Positions 22,865 to 32,942 of a stretch of 43,575 bases of DNA are shown piece by piece. Source of the DNA: Candidatus Korarchaeota archaeon NZ13-K. GTDB taxonomy: Archaea > Korarchaeota > Korarchaeia > Korarchaeales > Korarchaeaceae. A program made the translations under genes and the position numbers. Where the stretch lies: contig MAIU01000003.1 of the NCBI GenBank assembly GCA_003344655.1, forward strand, positions 1 through 43,575, given 5' to 3'. The notes beneath the pieces are model-generated. The model saw nothing but the letters and a program-made list of their open reading frames with translations. It was not told the DNA's origin and made no database searches. Each line of letters begins with the position of its first letter. The first letter of the stretch is position 1.

Positions 22865-24415
22865 GTGCCATCTCCCGAAACTGAAAAAACTGACGAGCTG
22901 ACTAGGAAATTCCTGAGGGAAGTTGAGGACATCAGATTCCTCCTGAATGAGAACCCAGTAAGGAGTATTCCCAGTAGGATAGTTCTGGGTGAGGTTCATA
23001 CCTCCAAATGCCCTAGAAATCACGTTATTGAGGATAGGGGGATTCTCATAATCGATAGAAGGCTCAGTGAGGAGGAGATAGATGCTATAATAAGGAGGGA
23101 GGCTTTCATCAGGTTTTTACCGGAGGCAGATTTCCCCCAGCTATATGACATAGCTTGGTACTACGCTGGGAACCTGGCCCTCTGGTCGAGATGTCCGTCA
23201 GAGATCAGGCTAAGGACGCTACCTGCCTACAGGGCCCCGGATGACTTCCTCCCAATAGAACCCGGAAGCTCGCCCTCAGTCATCAAGGGCATCGTGAAGC
23301 TCCTCCTTAGGCGCTGGAGGCTGGAGGGGAGGATAAGCGCAAGGACCTTCCTGAGGATATTCCTGGCGGTTAGGGGATATCCCTCGATCCGCATGAGCAA
23401 AAGGGAGGCGAGGACGCTCAACTCGCTGCTGCAGGTGCTCCAGGATGGAGGGGAATCGAAGATAGAGAGGCTTGCCGTGAAGAGCAAGCAGTCCCCTGCC
23501 TCCGTCTCCAGGGCGATAAGGGTGCTGGTGAGCAAGGGCGTGATAGTGGGTCCCTACGTGCTCTATCCCTCCAACTTGGGATTGTCCACCTATATAATGG
23601 AGATCGAGGATCCTGAGGATGAGGAGCTAGCTTTCCTGGACGAATTTCCCTTCACATACTCCGCTCTCGTGACCTCAAGTGATACTTACTATGTTAACTT
23701 ACTCGTCCCCCAGCACCTGGAGGGAGCTCTTGAGGGGCTGAGCGGTGATGGGATGAGGCTGGGTAAGAGGGTCGCCCTCAGCTTCGACCTGCTCCCGGCC
23801 CAGCACATCGCCCCCGAGCTCATAATGGAGAGGATGCTGGAAGGGTATGAATCGGCTGGAGACACCCCTCTGAGCATACTAGAACTCTCCAGACCCAGGA
23901 AACCATCCATCAGGCTTGATGATAAGGACATGGTTGCCCTTAAGGAGGTAGAGGAGAGGGGTAGGGTGTCCAGGGATCACATGAGGGGCATGGGGATACC
24001 TAACCCGGCCGAGAGGTTCGCTAAGTACAGGAGGGCGGGCATAGTGGTGAAGGGTTACTTCCCAACGGGCTTAGGTTTGGGGGAGGGAGTCATCATGAGA
24101 ATTGATGTGCCGTTCAAGGACTTCCTGAGGGTGAAGAGGGCCATCTCGAGCGTCTCATCCGTGGCGCTCTTTTTCACCGAGGGTGAGCTGCGCGGGGTGA
24201 CGGGGGTGGCTTTCCTGAGCGGGGGAATGGTGGGGCCGTTCATGAGGGCTTTGAGCACTTTCCTCGGTGACAGGATCGAGAGGTTGGAGCTGGCCTCCTC
24301 CTTGGGGCCCTCCAGCTGGCAGGTCCCCGTTGAGCTCTGGAACGTTGAGGAGCAGAGGTTTGAGATGGATGTTGAGGGATTCAAGAGGGCTTTCTCGAGG
24401 AGACTGAGGCGCTAG
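22865..24415 (+). CDS. Putative Lrp-like regulator with two winged-helix segments, 516 aa
   Basis: Residues about 1-190 are of unknown type (LSEEEIDAIIRREAFIRFLP and YDIAWYYAGNLALW stand out). A first helix-turn-helix follows, SKIERLAVKSKQSPASVSRAIRVLVSKGVIVGP, then strands like an Lrp effector domain. A second unit near residue 355 repeats the order: DKDMVALKEVEERGRVSRDHMRGMGIPNPAERFAKYRRAGIVVKGYFP, then MRIDVPFKDFLRVKRAISSV. So it appears to be a double HTH-plus-RAM-like protein. GTG 22865 lies 23-24 nt after TTATATAT, so probably leaderless. Its last 35 bp overlap the convergent dehydrogenase gene. Function as a transcription regulator is inference. Confidence 0.62.
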   Translation: MPSPETEKTDELTRKFLREVEDIRFLLNENPVRSIPSRIVLGEVHTSKCPRNHVIEDRGILIIDRRLSEEEIDAIIRREAFIRFLPEADFPQLYDIAWYYAGNLALWSRCPSEIRLRTLPAYRAPDDFLPIEPGSSPSVIKGIVKLLLRRWRLEGRISARTFLRIFLAVRGYPSIRMSKREARTLNSLLQVLQDGGESKIERLAVKSKQSPASVSRAIRVLVSKGVIVGPYVLYPSNLGLSTYIMEIEDPEDEELAFLDEFPFTYSALVTSSDTYYVNLLVPQHLEGALEGLSGDGMRLGKRVALSFDLLPAQHIAPELIMERMLEGYESAGDTPLSILELSRPRKPSIRLDDKDMVALKEVEERGRVSRDHMRGMGIPNPAERFAKYRRAGIVVKGYFPTGLGLGEGVIMRIDVPFKDFLRVKRAISSVSSVALFFTEGELRGVTGVAFLSGGMVGPFMRALSTFLGDRIERLELASSLGPSSWQVPVELWNVEEQRFEMDVEGFKRAFSRRLRR

Positions 24416-25982: not shown

Positions 25983-26492
25983 ATGCTTCTCATCCTGAGT
26001 TACCTTCTAGCCATGATACTGGTCCCCGGCCTAAGGATACCGGAGCTGATCGCGAGGCTGGGCCACCTCGGGATGGTGATGCTAGGGCTGCTGTACGTTT
26101 ACTCCTTCACCGCAGGTATCGCCACATTGACCTTGCTCACAATGGCCGGGGGACAGGATCCAATCCTGAGAGTAGCTATGGCCGGGTTCGGCGCCCTCAT
26201 AGGGGATCTCATCCTCTCCTACCTCATGAGGGAGGAGATTAATGGTGAGATATCCGAGCTAGCGAGGGAGAGGATCGTCCAAATGATCCTGGGCATTTTG
26301 CCCCCCAGATTCAAGGGCGAGACCCTCAAAATATCGCTCGCCTGCCTGCTCATAGCATCCCCCCTTCCCACGGAGCTGGGGGCCGCGCTCCTGGCATCAG
26401 TGAGGAGGTTGCGGGTGAGGGAGATGGTCCTCATCATGTGCCTCCTGCACACGGCGGGGCTCTCCTCGATCCTCCTGCTGGGGACCCTCTAG
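25983..26492 (+). CDS. Small polytopic membrane protein, unknown function
   Basis: 169 residues with four or five hydrophobic helices: MLLILSYLLAMILVPG, LGMVMLGLLYVYSFTAGIATLTLL, VAMAGFGALIGDLILSYL, ISLACLLIASPLPTELGAALLAS and MVLIMCLLHTAGLSSILLLG. A polar loop (about 80-115) separates the third and fourth. The IASPLPTELG element before a helix recalls small DedA/YqaA-type membrane proteins, but I do not claim that family. ATG 25983 is chosen as the first start after the leader; there is no strong ribosome site. The gene converges on the phosphatase gene and the coding ends overlap by 59 bp. Confidence 0.65.
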   Translation: MLLILSYLLAMILVPGLRIPELIARLGHLGMVMLGLLYVYSFTAGIATLTLLTMAGGQDPILRVAMAGFGALIGDLILSYLMREEINGEISELARERIVQMILGILPPRFKGETLKISLACLLIASPLPTELGAALLASVRRLRVREMVLIMCLLHTAGLSSILLLGTL

Positions 26493-26958
26493 TGCGATCA
26501 TCGCTCAGGAGCGATCTGTATGTGTAGTAATGCCACAGGGCGTTGTATTGAGCTTGACTCTCTATGGAACAAGGTCTTCTGGAGTTTAGGTGTGAGAGAG
26601 CTTCCTCTGGTGTCATCCCCTTGGAGATCAGGTAGCTAGCGAGCACGGTCCCCGTCCTACCGCAGCCGGCGAGACAGTGGACGAGCACCCTCCTCCCGGC
26701 ATCCACCCTCTCCCTGATGATGTCCACTATCCTCGCTAGGACCTCGATGGGAGGGGCCTCGAACTCCTCCACCGGGAAGAGGAGGTGCTCCACCCCGAGC
26801 TCCGCGAGCCTCCTCCTCACATCACGTCCCGGCTCGACCAGCGAGATCACAACAGTTATACCGTTCGCCGCCAGCCAGTCGACCTCCTCCTCGGAGCTTA
26901 TCAAAGATGAGCCGGCGACTTGCTGATCTATGAATGAGAAGTTCCTGGGTCTCCTCAC
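26434..26958 (-). CDS. Dual-specificity/tyrosine protein phosphatase
   Basis: Archaeal small PTP-type phosphatase. In 174 residues the P-loop VHCLAGCGRTGT carries the Cys95 nucleophile and Arg101, followed by SYLISKGMTPEEALSHLNSRRPCSIESQAQ, the usual recognition helix with Gln positions. The general acid region reads VEEFEAPP, with Glu where Asp is common. GTG 26958 has GAGGTCGG upstream. It is the last gene of the metal-uptake operon, 10 bp after the NikR-like gene, so it may act on proteins linked to that function (inference). The C-terminal 20 residues, rich in Arg, Gly and Pro, lie over the 3' end of the convergent membrane gene. Confidence 0.88.
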   Translation of the reverse strand: MRRPRNFSFIDQQVAGSSLISSEEEVDWLAANGITVVISLVEPGRDVRRRLAELGVEHLLFPVEEFEAPPIEVLARIVDIIRERVDAGRRVLVHCLAGCGRTGTVLASYLISKGMTPEEALSHLNSRRPCSIESQAQYNALWHYYTYRSLLSDDRTRGSPAGGSRRAPPCAGGT

Positions 26959-26968
26959 GATCCCGACC

Positions 26969-27349
26969 TCATCGGATGCAGGCGAGCGGCAGATACCTCT
27001 CCGAGACCCCCTTGATCCTCTTGAGCTCCCTCCTCAGGCTGATTATCTCGCTGGAATCCGCCTCCAAGAAGCCTATGTCGACGCAGCAGCCCTCGGAGTG
27101 ATGATGGCTCCTGGACACTATGCAGCTGCTGTACTTCTCCAGCACCTTGGATGCCCCCTCCGGGGTCCTCGAGATGACTATAAGGACTCCCCTGCACCTA
27201 TGAGGCCTGAGGAGGTGGGACCTCTCATCTATCGCCTCCCTTATGAGCTCCTCTATGATGGACGACCTGCTGACCATAAGCTCCCTGGATAGGGAATCCA
27301 GCTTCTCGAGCAGCTCGCTTGGGATGGAGACGCCGAACCTCCTCCTCAT
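26969..27349 (-). CDS. NikR-like ribbon-helix-helix metal-responsive regulator
   Basis: 126 residues: an N-terminal RHH DNA-binding unit (RRFGVSIPSELLEKLDSLSRELMVSRSSIIEELIREAI) and a C-terminal ACT-like metal domain. The segment SRSHHHSEGCCVDIGF (His82-84, Cys88-89) takes the place of the NikR metal site H-x-H-x5-C, one residue shorter. So a metal-responsive repressor is likely, though the metal need not be nickel; next to a ZnuABC-type transporter, zinc or manganese are options. ATG 27349 overlaps the permease stop as ATGA. Probable target: the GTGCACAT inverted repeat at 28914-28951. Confidence 0.85.
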   Translation of the reverse strand: MRRRFGVSIPSELLEKLDSLSRELMVSRSSIIEELIREAIDERSHLLRPHRCRGVLIVISRTPEGASKVLEKYSSCIVSRSHHHSEGCCVDIGFLEADSSEIISLRRELKRIKGVSERYLPLACIR

Positions 27350-28173
27350 CTTCCCCCCCTTCCGAGCATGGAGATCAGATAAACGGAGAACATAGTCAAA
27401 CCGATGCAGCCAGATGGTGATAGACCGGTTAGGAGTCCCAGGATCAGGCCGGCGAGCCCTCCCAAGAGGGAGATAGTGAAAGAGAAGAGGATGAATTCCC
27501 TCAGGCTCCTCGCCAGTGAGGCGGCCGTTATGGCAGGGAGCATGATCATCACATGCTCCAGCACGAAGCCGACGATCCTAAGGAGTCCTACTGTTGCGAT
27601 TGCCAGGGATATGGCGGCTAAGGCATCATAAAAAGCCACTTTAACTCCGGATATCCTTGCGAAGTCCCTATCCGCCCCTATCAGTGCTTGCTTCCTCAGG
27701 ACGGGCAGGTTGATCCCGAGGATCGCGAGGGATATGAGGGCAGCGTAGCTGACGTCATCCCAGGTCACCAGGAGCGGGTCACCGACTAAGTAGGACCAGA
27801 GGCTTTCCCTCAATGGGAAGCCCGTTATCACGTAGTAGAGGGAGAGCGCGGTGAGCGAGACCGTGAGGGATAGGAAGGCTGCAGTGGCTACATCGGGCCT
27901 CACGCCCTTGGATACCATGTAGAAGACTGAGGATACCATCGCGATGCTGAGGATGAGGGAGCCCATCTGGTGAGGGATGCTGAGGATTCTGTCCAAGATT
28001 ATAGCTAGGATGGCCGAGAGCAGGGCCGAATGGGGGAGGGAACCGGCCAGGAAGAGGAGCCTCCTGGATAGAACCAGGGGGCTGACCACGCCGAAGGCCA
28101 TGGAGGAGAGGGATATAACGACCAACCACCTGAAGTCTAAGATGAGCTCAAACGGCATGGTAATCCACCACAT
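27346..28173 (-). CDS. ABC-3 family metal transporter permease (ZnuB/MntB-like)
   Basis: 275-residue inner-membrane channel of a divalent-metal ABC importer. About eight hydrophobic helices; the family segments SLPHSALLSAILAI and LPAITAASLARSL (cytoplasmic coupling area) are recognisable, as is the repeated Gly-rich C-terminal pair of helices. ATG 28173 follows GAGGTGCC; ATG 28158 (MPFELILDF) with GGTGGAT before it is an alternative. The start overlaps the ATPase gene by 26 bp and the stop overlaps the regulator by 4 bp, so the three genes form a tight operon. Confidence 0.9.
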   Translation of the reverse strand: MWWITMPFELILDFRWLVVISLSSMAFGVVSPLVLSRRLLFLAGSLPHSALLSAILAIILDRILSIPHQMGSLILSIAMVSSVFYMVSKGVRPDVATAAFLSLTVSLTALSLYYVITGFPLRESLWSYLVGDPLLVTWDDVSYAALISLAILGINLPVLRKQALIGADRDFARISGVKVAFYDALAAISLAIATVGLLRIVGFVLEHVMIMLPAITAASLARSLREFILFSFTISLLGGLAGLILGLLTGLSPSGCIGLTMFSVYLISMLGRGGR

Positions 28174-28912
28174 GGAGGCACCTCTCTACGAGCAAGACGT
28201 TTCCACCGTAGACTCGTTTCATCACATCCTCTCTGAGGACCTCCTCTGGAGGTCCCATGGCGACTATCCCCCTGTTCAGGGCAACCAAGGCCTTCGCCCT
28301 ATTTATGAACAGTGTGGGATCGTGGCTGCTCACCAGTAAGAGCTTTCTCTCTGAGAGTTCGAAGATGATCCTGATGAGATTCTCCCTTCCGGTTGGGTCC
28401 ATTGCCGTCAGCGGCTCGTCCATTATCAATATCGGGGGGTCTCGGATGAGCGCCCTCGCCAGCATGACCCTCTGCTTCTGTCCCCCGCTCAGCTGCTGGA
28501 AAGGCCTCTCCATGATCTCCGAGAGACCAAGATCCCTGACAAGGGATTCGATGGATGCTTTCCCCTCGTCCCCCACCTCACGCCCGGCGGACCCTCCCCT
28601 GAGGATCGCAGCGGACTCCAAGAGCTCCCTGACGCTCAAGGGAAAGGGTGGGCTAAGAATCCCCAGCTGAGGGACGTATCCGGCGAATCTGCCAGCTCTC
28701 TCAGGGCTTCCTGTGACCTCCACACCGTTCATGTAAACCCTGCCCTTGACCTCGATCAGACCGAGCAAAGCCCTGAAGAGAGTGGTCTTCCCGGCTCCAT
28801 TGGGTCCTATCACCAGGAAAAGCCCTGGACCGATGAACTCGAAGCTCTCTCCTCTGAACACGATCTCCTCTCCGTAGCTGACCGATAGATCCTCAGCTCG
28901 TATCGACTGCAT
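28148..28912 (-). CDS. Metal ABC transporter ATP-binding protein (ZnuC/MntA-like)
   Basis: 254-residue ATPase with Walker A GPNGAGKTT (36-44), the Q-loop at GYVPQ, signature LSGGQKQR, Walker B ILIMDEP with the switch His in VSSHDP. It drives the permease encoded downstream. I place the start at ATG 28912: the protein then begins MQSIRAEDLSVSYG as in the family, and a TATA element lies 20-29 nt upstream, consistent with a leaderless mRNA. A longer reading to 29095 would run through the divergent promoter and the signal-peptide region of the neighbouring gene, and is rejected. Confidence 0.92.
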   Translation of the reverse strand: MQSIRAEDLSVSYGEEIVFRGESFEFIGPGLFLVIGPNGAGKTTLFRALLGLIEVKGRVYMNGVEVTGSPERAGRFAGYVPQLGILSPPFPLSVRELLESAAILRGGSAGREVGDEGKASIESLVRDLGLSEIMERPFQQLSGGQKQRVMLARALIRDPPILIMDEPLTAMDPTGRENLIRIIFELSERKLLLVSSHDPTLFINRAKALVALNRGIVAMGPPEEVLREDVMKRVYGGNVLLVERCLHVVDYHAV

Positions 28913-28913
28913 C

Positions 28914-28951
28914 GTGCACATTTCCATGAACATATTTATAAAGATGTGCAC
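28914..28951. promoter_or_regulatory. Divergent promoter with perfect inverted repeat operator candidate
   Basis: GTGCACAT at 28914-28921 and ATGTGCAC at 28944-28951 form a perfect inverted repeat around a 22-bp spacer that contains CATATTTATAAAG, usable as TATA box in both directions. Each half also contains the palindrome GTGCAC; the two centres are 32 bp apart, about three helical turns. The ATPase gene starts at 28912 and the binding-protein gene at 28968, so a protein bound here would control both. The NikR-like protein of the operon is the natural candidate. Confidence 0.7.
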
Positions 28952-28967: not shown

Positions 28968-29924
28968 ATGAGCAGAGCAGTCCCGGCGTTCCTAATACTC
29001 CTGCTGGTGATGGGCTCATCCCCCATAAGCGCCGGTGGAGGTGGTGTGAGGATAGTGGTCACCTTCAGCAATCTGGTGCATGACATTAGGCTCATAGCAT
29101 GCGCTGATGACGAGGTTGACTACCTGGTCCCCCCGGGTCTGGATCCTCACGACTACGAGCTGAGGCCCGGGGATATCGAGAAGCTGAGGAGGGCCGATCT
29201 CATAGTCTCTACGGCCCACACTCCCTTCGAGGTCTCGGTGAGGAAGATGGTCTCTGAGGGGAGTGTGAGGGCGAGGCTGATGGAGATACCATCGGTTAAG
29301 GGGATCAGGATATACGAGAACCCATCGACGGGCCAGCCTAACTATCACATGCCCATCTACGATCCCCTCAATTACCTGGCGTTCATGAGGGAGCTCAGGG
29401 ATGTGCTGAAGGAGCTGAACCCGTCCCGCTCCGAGACCTATGATAGGAATTACCTGGAAGTGGAGGAGAGGATTAGGAGTATGATGGCGGAGGCCCACAG
29501 GATGAACGCAACGGCTCTAGCCTCGACTCCGATGGCGCAGTACGCTTTGGAGTGGCTCGGCGTGAGGGTGAGGTTCCTGTTGATGAAGGATGAGGGCCTT
29601 CCTGTTACCCCCTCGGAGCTCTCTGAGATCTATAGAGCTGCCAGGAGCGGGGAGATAGACTTGGTGGTCACTGTAGGTGATGAGAGAACCCAAGCGAACC
29701 TGAAGGCCATTGAGATATCCGAGGAGTTCGGGATAAGGAGGGTGAACATCCCCTCCCCCTTGGAGGGGAGCAGCATCCCGGATAAGCTGGATAGGATCGT
29801 CAGATCGCTAGGGGAGGGAATAGAGAGGGGGAAGTCTACCCAGGGGGACAGCATGGTGCTGGTGCTGATACCCGTGGCTCTAGCGCTGCTGGTGGTCTAC
29901 CTCCTCAGGAGGAGGATCAAATGA
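28968..29924 (+). CDS. Metal ABC transporter substrate-binding protein (ZnuA-like)
   Basis: 318 residues from ATG 28968: signal peptide MSRAVPAFLILLLVMGSSPI, cluster A-I binding domains, and a C-terminal membrane anchor (VLVLIPVALALLVVYLLRRRIK), so the protein is tethered outside the cell. Metal ligands in family positions: His in GLDPHDYELRP, His in PNYHMPIYDP, then Glu/Asp in later strands; the usual His-rich loop of ZnuA is absent. The TATA box lies 26-35 nt upstream, so the message is probably leaderless. Divergent from the ATPase-permease-regulator operon and sharing its operator. Zinc or manganese uptake is the likely function. Confidence 0.88.
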   Translation: MSRAVPAFLILLLVMGSSPISAGGGGVRIVVTFSNLVHDIRLIACADDEVDYLVPPGLDPHDYELRPGDIEKLRRADLIVSTAHTPFEVSVRKMVSEGSVRARLMEIPSVKGIRIYENPSTGQPNYHMPIYDPLNYLAFMRELRDVLKELNPSRSETYDRNYLEVEERIRSMMAEAHRMNATALASTPMAQYALEWLGVRVRFLLMKDEGLPVTPSELSEIYRAARSGEIDLVVTVGDERTQANLKAIEISEEFGIRRVNIPSPLEGSSIPDKLDRIVRSLGEGIERGKSTQGDSMVLVLIPVALALLVVYLLRRRIK

Positions 29925-29968: not shown

Positions 29969-30220
29969 ATGAGCGAGTGGGCGCGCAGGGCTCACCACTA
30001 CCTTAACGTCACCGGCAGGCTCAGGGGCTTCAGGAACCTGAGCGAGGGTCAGAGGTATGAGGTGATAAGGGAGGGCATTCTGGAGTTCATGAGGGACAAC
30101 CCGATCGGTGAGGATGAGGCCGAGGAAGCCCTAGAGTGGTTCCTGGCGAGGAGGAAGATTCACGAGGCCAGGGTGTTCGCGAAGGTCATGGGGCTGAGGA
30201 TTGGGAGGAGGCGTGTCTGA
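29969..30220 (+). CDS. Small helical protein, 83 aa, unknown
   Basis: No family recognised. A basic, mostly helical protein: MSEWARRAHHYLNVTGRLRG, then QRYEVIREGILEFMRDN, EDEAEEALEWFLARRKIHEARVFAKVMGL and a basic tail RIGRRRV. ATTAAGCTTATC at 29927-29938 sits about 35 nt upstream of the ATG. The metallophosphoesterase follows after 20 bp and has no TATA box of its own, so the two are probably one transcript. Nucleic-acid binding would suit the charge, but nothing in the sequence proves it. Confidence 0.65.
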   Translation: MSEWARRAHHYLNVTGRLRGFRNLSEGQRYEVIREGILEFMRDNPIGEDEAEEALEWFLARRKIHEARVFAKVMGLRIGRRRV

Positions 30221-31064: not shown

Positions 31065-32942
31065 ATGGTCTCAGTGATAATATGCGCCGGCGGGGTCGCA
31101 TCTAGAATGGGAAGATACTCAAGTGGGATACCCAAGACTCTCTTCGAGCTGGAGCCCGGAGTCACGATCCTGGATCACATAGTGGAGAGGATCAGGAAGT
31201 TAAGGCCTGAGAGGATCTTGATAGTCACTAGGCCTGAGTTCAAGGAGTTGATTGAGGGGAGAATTGGCAAGGAGGCCGAGATTATACTGACGGATCTGGA
31301 GGATTTCGGAAACCTGTACACGGTCTCCCTGGCCCTGGATAGGGTGGGTGATGACTTCCTGATAGTAATGTCCGACCACATATTCGAGCAATCCATCCTG
31401 GAGGAGCTGATCGATCACTGGAGCGATAGGGCCTTCACAGTATGCTTGGACAGGAGTCCGTCCAGATCCGAGACCATAGAAGGGCTGAAGCTCCTGCTGA
31501 GGGAGGGAGATGTCGTCCTGACCGGCAAGGAGGTCCCCCCGCACTACGGCATAGATACGGGCCTCATAATGTGCAGGGGGAGGGCCAAGGATTACATAAG
31601 GGCCACCGTGAGGGAGAAGGGGCCCCAGGCTAGGATAGCTGATGCTCTCAACATGGCCGCCTCATCGGGCGATGTTGATTACGTGAACGTCACCGGGAAG
31701 GTTTGGAAGGATGTGGACACTCCGGAGGATCTAGAGAGGGCCAGAAAGCTCTACTGGGAGATCCTGAGGAGGGAGCTCGTCAAGCCCGAGGACGGGCTCG
31801 TGTCCAGGTATCTGAACAGGCCCATATCCACCAGGATATCTTTGATGCTCTACAGGAGGAGGATCTGGGTAAATCCAACGATCATATCATCGCTCTCCTC
31901 CATCCTTTGCCTGATAGCAGCCTTTCTCCTGGCCGAGGGGAGCCTCCTCCTGGGTGGACTGCTGGCGCAGGTCGCATCGCTACTGGACGGCGTCGACGGG
32001 GAGGTGGCCAGGCTATTCAAGAGGTCATCGAAACTAGGTGGCTTCCTCGATTCCCTCATGGACAGGGTCTCCGATGTAGCCCTCGTCGCTGGACTGACCC
32101 TCTCACTTGACCTGGGGCGATCCGCCCTTCTGCTCCCGATACTGGCCTCGGCCAACAGCGTACTGGTGAGCTACGTCACCTCGGGCCTGGCGGGAGCTGG
32201 TGTGAGGATCCGCATGCTCAGGTCGATACCCGCGACCAGGGACGTCAGGATATTCATCATATTCTTAGCATGCTCCCTCTCACAACCCTGGCTGGCCCTC
32301 TGGTACCTCTCCACGGTTCCCCTGATCTACCTGGCCGCATCAGTCTACCTGGCATACAGGGATCTCAGGGAGCCAAGGAGCCTCAGGATGCCGGAGAGAA
32401 GGAAACCGCTTCCCGAGCTCTCAATGGAGAGGGGTGAGCTGAGCGTCATTTTGAGGGAGATATTATCGAACCTCTTCAGGATGATTGTAGCTCTGCTGCT
32501 TGTGAGGATCCTCTCCCCCGTGATCTCCGACGTCACCCTCATATCTAGTGAGGACCTCCTGATAAGGGGAGAGCTGCTCCTAACCTCCCTGGACTTCCTG
32601 ATAACGATATACTTCGGTTACAGGATACTGGTGCCCCTCAAGGGGCTCTTCGACATGGCCTCCGATAGGTTCGCTGAGAGGATAGGTGTGACCAGGACGA
32701 CGCTGGGAAGGATCGTAACGGATCTCATTTACATGACGATAGGCTCCATCCTCTGGGTCTACTTGCCTAGGATAGCGATGCAATTGCTCGGAGAGTGGAT
32801 ATCCAGGCTGATATACCTGGGATTGGCCGTTCTCCTCATGATAACTGCCTACGATCTCATGAAAACCCTTTACAGGACTTTCGGGGATCTCTACTCGAGG
32901 CTGATCGAGGGACTGACTAAGAGGATAGGAGGGGCCGGGTGA
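31065..32942 (+). CDS. Bifunctional IPCT/DIPP synthase-like protein with extra C-terminal membrane domain
   Basis: Related to CTP:inositol-1-phosphate cytidylyltransferase fused to di-myo-inositol phosphate phosphate synthase, which makes the thermolyte DIP in hyperthermophiles. Residues 1-240: nucleotidyltransferase with IICAGGVASRMGRY and IPKTLFELEPG. Residues about 245-430: CDP-alcohol phosphatidyltransferase with the exact D311-G-x2-A-R-x8-G-x3-D-x3-D333 motif and several helices. Residues about 445-625 are additional: four more hydrophobic helices with GVTRTTLGRIVTDLIYMTIGS between them, not part of the roughly 430-450-aa enzymes I know. Archaetidylinositol-phosphate synthesis is an alternative role. 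TTATATTAT lies 29-37 nt upstream. The stop abuts the convergent gene as TGATCA. Confidence 0.83.
   Translation: MVSVIICAGGVASRMGRYSSGIPKTLFELEPGVTILDHIVERIRKLRPERILIVTRPEFKELIEGRIGKEAEIILTDLEDFGNLYTVSLALDRVGDDFLIVMSDHIFEQSILEELIDHWSDRAFTVCLDRSPSRSETIEGLKLLLREGDVVLTGKEVPPHYGIDTGLIMCRGRAKDYIRATVREKGPQARIADALNMAASSGDVDYVNVTGKVWKDVDTPEDLERARKLYWEILRRELVKPEDGLVSRYLNRPISTRISLMLYRRRIWVNPTIISSLSSILCLIAAFLLAEGSLLLGGLLAQVASLLDGVDGEVARLFKRSSKLGGFLDSLMDRVSDVALVAGLTLSLDLGRSALLLPILASANSVLVSYVTSGLAGAGVRIRMLRSIPATRDVRIFIIFLACSLSQPWLALWYLSTVPLIYLAASVYLAYRDLREPRSLRMPERRKPLPELSMERGELSVILREILSNLFRMIVALLLVRILSPVISDVTLISSEDLLIRGELLLTSLDFLITIYFGYRILVPLKGLFDMASDRFAERIGVTRTTLGRIVTDLIYMTIGSILWVYLPRIAMQLLGEWISRLIYLGLAVLLMITAYDLMKTLYRTFGDLYSRLIEGLTKRIGGAG

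Follow-up and report, generated by a model that had tools for sequence, protein, structure and literature searches.

What does a pair of short palindromes, set between two divergent metal-uptake genes of a korarchaeon, do at this promoter, and which protein would read it? The pair lies in a 43,575-nucleotide stretch of Candidatus Korarchaeota archaeon NZ13-K (the window), in the gap between a znuC-like gene starting at 28912 on the minus strand and a znuA-like gene starting at 28968 on the plus strand. An earlier note, made from the letters of the window, had proposed an operator here and had pointed to a NikR-like ribbon-helix-helix (RHH) regulator in the neighbouring operon. The proposal was followed up in a comparison set of 29 genomes of the phylum, 16 of them in the genus and the window genome among them; dyad searches in these genomes were conducted as pattern scans.

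The paired boxes and the genes around them

Three genes are arranged in order on the minus strand: a znuC-like metal ABC transporter ATPase (28148-28912; PF00005 and synteny), a znuB-like metal ABC transporter permease (27346-28173; PF00950 ABC-3, E=2.4e-24) and, behind znuCB, the NikR-like RHH regulator proposed as the binder (26969-27349; RHH Pfam match, NikR fold, own clade, below the NikR cut-offs). On the plus strand is the znuA-like substrate-binding protein (28968-29924; PF01297, E=5e-22). The order znuC-znuB-RHH is conserved in the loci of the genus, with divergent znuA in most, and wherever the neighbourhood is assembled (14 genomes) the regulator gene is linked to znuCB. A dual-specificity-type phosphatase behind the regulator (26434-26958, minus strand; PF22785/PF00782) is listed for linkage only, being adjacent or about 1-3 kb off in relatives. 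Downstream of znuA, most genus members carry an 83-aa protein with no Pfam match (29969-30220 in the window), which is better conserved than znuA (68-83%) and recurs as distant copies in two other genera (three genomes). Further along, the protein encoded at 31065-32942 looks by eye like a fused nucleotidyltransferase and CDP-alcohol phosphatidyltransferase, resembling an enzyme that makes the heat protectant di-myo-inositol phosphate.

The element GTGCACAT-TTCCATGAACATATTTATAAAG-ATGTGCAC was found at 28914-28951 exactly as the note had given it, in letters and in coordinates. At up to three mismatches it has one match in the window, against 0.07 expected from shuffles, and no second match in the 1.37-Mb genome. 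The note's centre-to-centre distance of 32 bp is correct for the GTGCAC hexamers (box 1, 28914-28919, 1 bp from the znuC start codon; box 2, 28946-28951, 3 bp from TATAAA) but not for the 8-bp arms, whose centres lie 30 bp apart. The TATA it placed in the spacer is TATAAA at 28937-28942. Written as GTGCAC-N26-GTGCAC (28914-28951), the whole operator is an exact match, unique in the genome; like the boxes and TATAAA it was annotated without strand.

Whole-genome scanning with GTGCAC-N26-GTGCAC located the dyad at the znu promoter in 14 of the 16 genus genomes, once in 13 of them and twice in the genome labelled G018, giving 15 sites; the first 13 promoters read had all carried GTGCAC twice, 32 bp apart (13/13). 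In one of the two genus genomes without the dyad (G013) the contig ends inside the regulator gene, and in the other (G019), which is 70% complete, neither a regulator ortholog nor znuA was found. Alignment of the 15 sites showed that all 12 arm positions, the 32-bp spacing and TATAAA in fixed register are invariant. Just 5 of the 15 sites (14 genomes) match the 8-bp arm's outer AT on both sides, which rules out the inverted arm GTGCACAT, the half-site of the note, as the conserved unit; what stays invariant in this alignment is the 6-bp palindrome GTGCAC. Because an A follows GTGCAC on the plus strand in 14 of 15 copies of each arm, outside the palindrome the copies look no less like a direct repeat than an inverted one.

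Scanning of gaps from N12 to N40 in the genus returned no other spacing that recurs at promoters with an AT-rich, TATA-bearing spacer. The note's suggested search for pairs at other metal genes yielded none, whether as exact pairs or at up to three mismatches of the arm and TATA pattern, except in G018, where the separated znuA and znuCB have one pair each. Weak matches in G015, G026 and G028 have altered arms. Orthologous loci that keep the regulator and lack the dyad, which the note had named as telling against its reading, were looked for and none was seen: the dyad is present wherever a genome has the regulator and the znu promoter is assembled, and where the regulator ortholog is absent the promoters are without it. 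As judged by sequence comparison, the dyad is a real, strongly conserved operator dedicated to znu promoters.

Promoter geometry and proposed mode of repression

With distances counted from the first T of TATAAA, most species have their nearest plausible znuA start 28 nt away (31 nt in the window; range 25-35 nt), and most have their znuC start, on the opposite strand, 30 nt away (32 nt in G018, about 37 nt in two species). In archaea the centre of the TATA box lies some 26-27 nt upstream of the transcription start; znuC and znuA would therefore be leaderless or nearly so, with one common TATA serving both directions. Box 1 would cover the znuC start, and box 2 would overlap the TFB-recognition side for znuC and sit between TATA and start for znuA. 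From these positions over both promoters, a bound protein should therefore repress in both directions.

The site is likely to be the dedicated operator of the NikR-like RHH regulator encoded behind znuCB, with two bridged dimers masking the TATA in metal-dependent repression. Each GTGCAC, a palindrome suited to one symmetric RHH dimer per box, would be read in the major groove by one two-fold-symmetric dimer, and the two dimers, on one face of the DNA and separated by three helical turns, would be joined via NikR-like C-terminal domains, as the predicted fold suggests. The metal-loaded protein would then cover the single TATA of the two leaderless genes, so that importer, substrate-binding protein and the regulator's own gene would be shut off together, and at low metal it would release the DNA.

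The span of the pair bears on the bridging step. The NikR operators of E. coli (GTATGA-N16-TCATAC; PMC7055735) and of delta-proteobacteria (GTGTTAC-N13/14-GTAACAC; PMC545781) have half-site centres 20-22 bp apart, versus 32 bp in 15/15 sites here, so a tetramer of NikR shape might span the boxes only if the DNA bends or the hinge is longer, or two tetramers might be required. The boxes might instead be two independent sites, one per gene, each with its own dimer and no bridging, the spacing being a by-product of promoter geometry; the span exceeds those known for NikR, each box is critically placed for one promoter, and the spacing could be set by constant distances from TATA to start. A natural REARRANGEMENT speaks to this in G018, where znuA lies on another contig and znuCB-RHH keeps its own promoter. 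There each promoter serves one znu gene set, yet both boxes, the spacing and the TATA are kept at both, with dissimilar spacers. Because both split promoters keep the full pair, it appears to work as one unit and to follow the znu genes, which leaves independent sites an unlikely explanation, if one that still has some weight. The relocated znuA (contig L082, 6685-7539) stands behind a gene that by eye resembles an erythrin/vacuolar-iron-transporter protein.

The znu-linked regulator and its metal

The regulator of the window has an N-terminal RHH domain (PF12651 and PF01402 above cut-off), and its predicted structure (mean pLDDT 85.9) matches NikR structures best, in agreement with the note's description of a NikR-like RHH protein. 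No Fur match was found in the linked regulator. It is present in 15 genus members including the window genome, the other 14 copies being 45-82% identical to that of the window. Against NikR_C (PF08753) it scores 17.4 bits with a cut-off of 22, and 13/13 family members match at E≤0.1 (best 1e-6); the best score against curated NikR models is 34.3 bits with a cut-off of 105, and every NikR cut-off is missed. When a tree was built that also took in part of P. horikoshii NikR and the phylum's 20 NikR paralogs, the znu-linked proteins grouped together with 100/100 support. The four nickel-ligand positions (His76, His87, His89, Cys95) are kept in 20/20 of the NikR paralogs; the znu-linked regulators lack an equivalent of His76 in 15/15, retain HxH and Cys, and have an added invariant HLLxxHxC (H45, H50, C52) between the two domains. 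By tree and ligand alignment the znu-linked regulator is a separate clade without one nickel ligand, and the note's reading of a NikR-like protein with a different half-site and spacing holds. A pattern-limited scan of 84,980 species genomes for relatives beyond the genus returned nine genus members and five distant RHH/NikR-like matches, the latter not above 47% in short stretches or 30% overall.

The operator could be genuine and yet be bound by another regulator encoded elsewhere, with the RHH protein controlling something else: binding by the RHH protein is a prediction, and the candidates weighed were proteins encoded at the locus. However, RHH regulator and dyad co-occur across the 29 genomes and stay linked, and the distribution of the other conserved neighbour, the 83-aa protein, is mismatched (G018 has two dyads but no copy of it, and G006-G008 have copies but no dyad at promoters), so that it was rejected as binder. 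Another regulator is on these grounds rather improbable.

As to the metal that the RHH regulator would sense, the loss of a nickel-binding histidine argues that it is probably not nickel. It might still be a nickel sensor at a transporter that carries nickel, since it retains HxH and Cys, three of the four NikR ligand positions. Against this, His76 is missing throughout, the transporter is of the ABC-3/ZnuA type, and the same genome encodes a NikR with the full nickel-ligand set at a nickel locus (L047, 5992-6423; G000:C5, about 23524-23880), adjoining by eye hypF, hypD and a cbiM/nikM-type ECF transporter; we regard a nickel sensor here as quite doubtful. Because that paralog sits in a nickel context and the znu-linked protein is without His76, the two seem to have divided the task between them. 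Importers of the ABC-3/ZnuA type carry Zn, Mn or Fe. Zinc is the favoured guess, moderately supported by the family of the transporter and by a ligand set rich in His and Cys; manganese and iron stand as alternatives. Three histidines (His61, His84, His127) are invariant in the ZnuA-like protein, which also has a C-terminal hydrophobic anchor; a canonical four-ligand metal site was sought in it and not recognised, so this protein does not reveal the metal.

Chance may be dismissed: short words do recur, and outside the genus G006 and G007 have one exact pair each, inside a long open frame and without TATA, but 15 sites invariant at one fixed spacing, against a mean pairwise spacer identity outside TATAAA of 39% (33% among the six most different sites), refute it almost beyond doubt. 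By eye, the frame holding the G006 and G007 matches is like a sulfate adenylyltransferase.

Relation to known systems

According to a 2019 review, NikR is the sole RHH protein regulated by metal (PMC7055735), and neither a NikR-like zinc regulator nor a GTGCAC archaeal operator was found in the literature searched (open papers). The korarchaeal system resembles NikR in the RHH and ACT-type fold (predicted here), in widely spaced paired half-sites and in the link to metal uptake genes. It differs in the protein, which lacks His76, has the added HLLxxHxC and falls below every NikR cut-off, and in the operator, with a palindromic half-site, 32 bp rather than 20-22 bp between centres and a ZnuABC-type importer as target. 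The clade has the look of a NikR relative adapted to another metal, in which ligand set and operator have both changed. Tentatively, and with somewhat less than an even chance in our judgement, it may represent a second, non-nickel (probably zinc) branch of metal-sensing RHH proteins, which would repress a two-way promoter in archaea by spanning a shared TATA between two palindromic boxes set three turns apart. With the full-ligand NikR paralog in the same cells it would provide a natural pair for studying the evolution of metal and DNA specificity within one fold, and the dyad is a precise candidate operator from an archaeal lineage in which few regulators have been described.

The metal-dependent repression of znuABC proposed here is the role that Zur, of the Fur family, has at znuABC promoters; Zur is a winged-helix protein, in contrast to the RHH protein here, and the operators are unrelated. 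The CopG-type RHH repressors resemble the regulator in the sequence of the DNA-binding domain (2cpg, hmmsearch E=0.0033), and the CopG operator contains TGCA boxes, but CopG is without a metal-binding domain and controls plasmid copy number.
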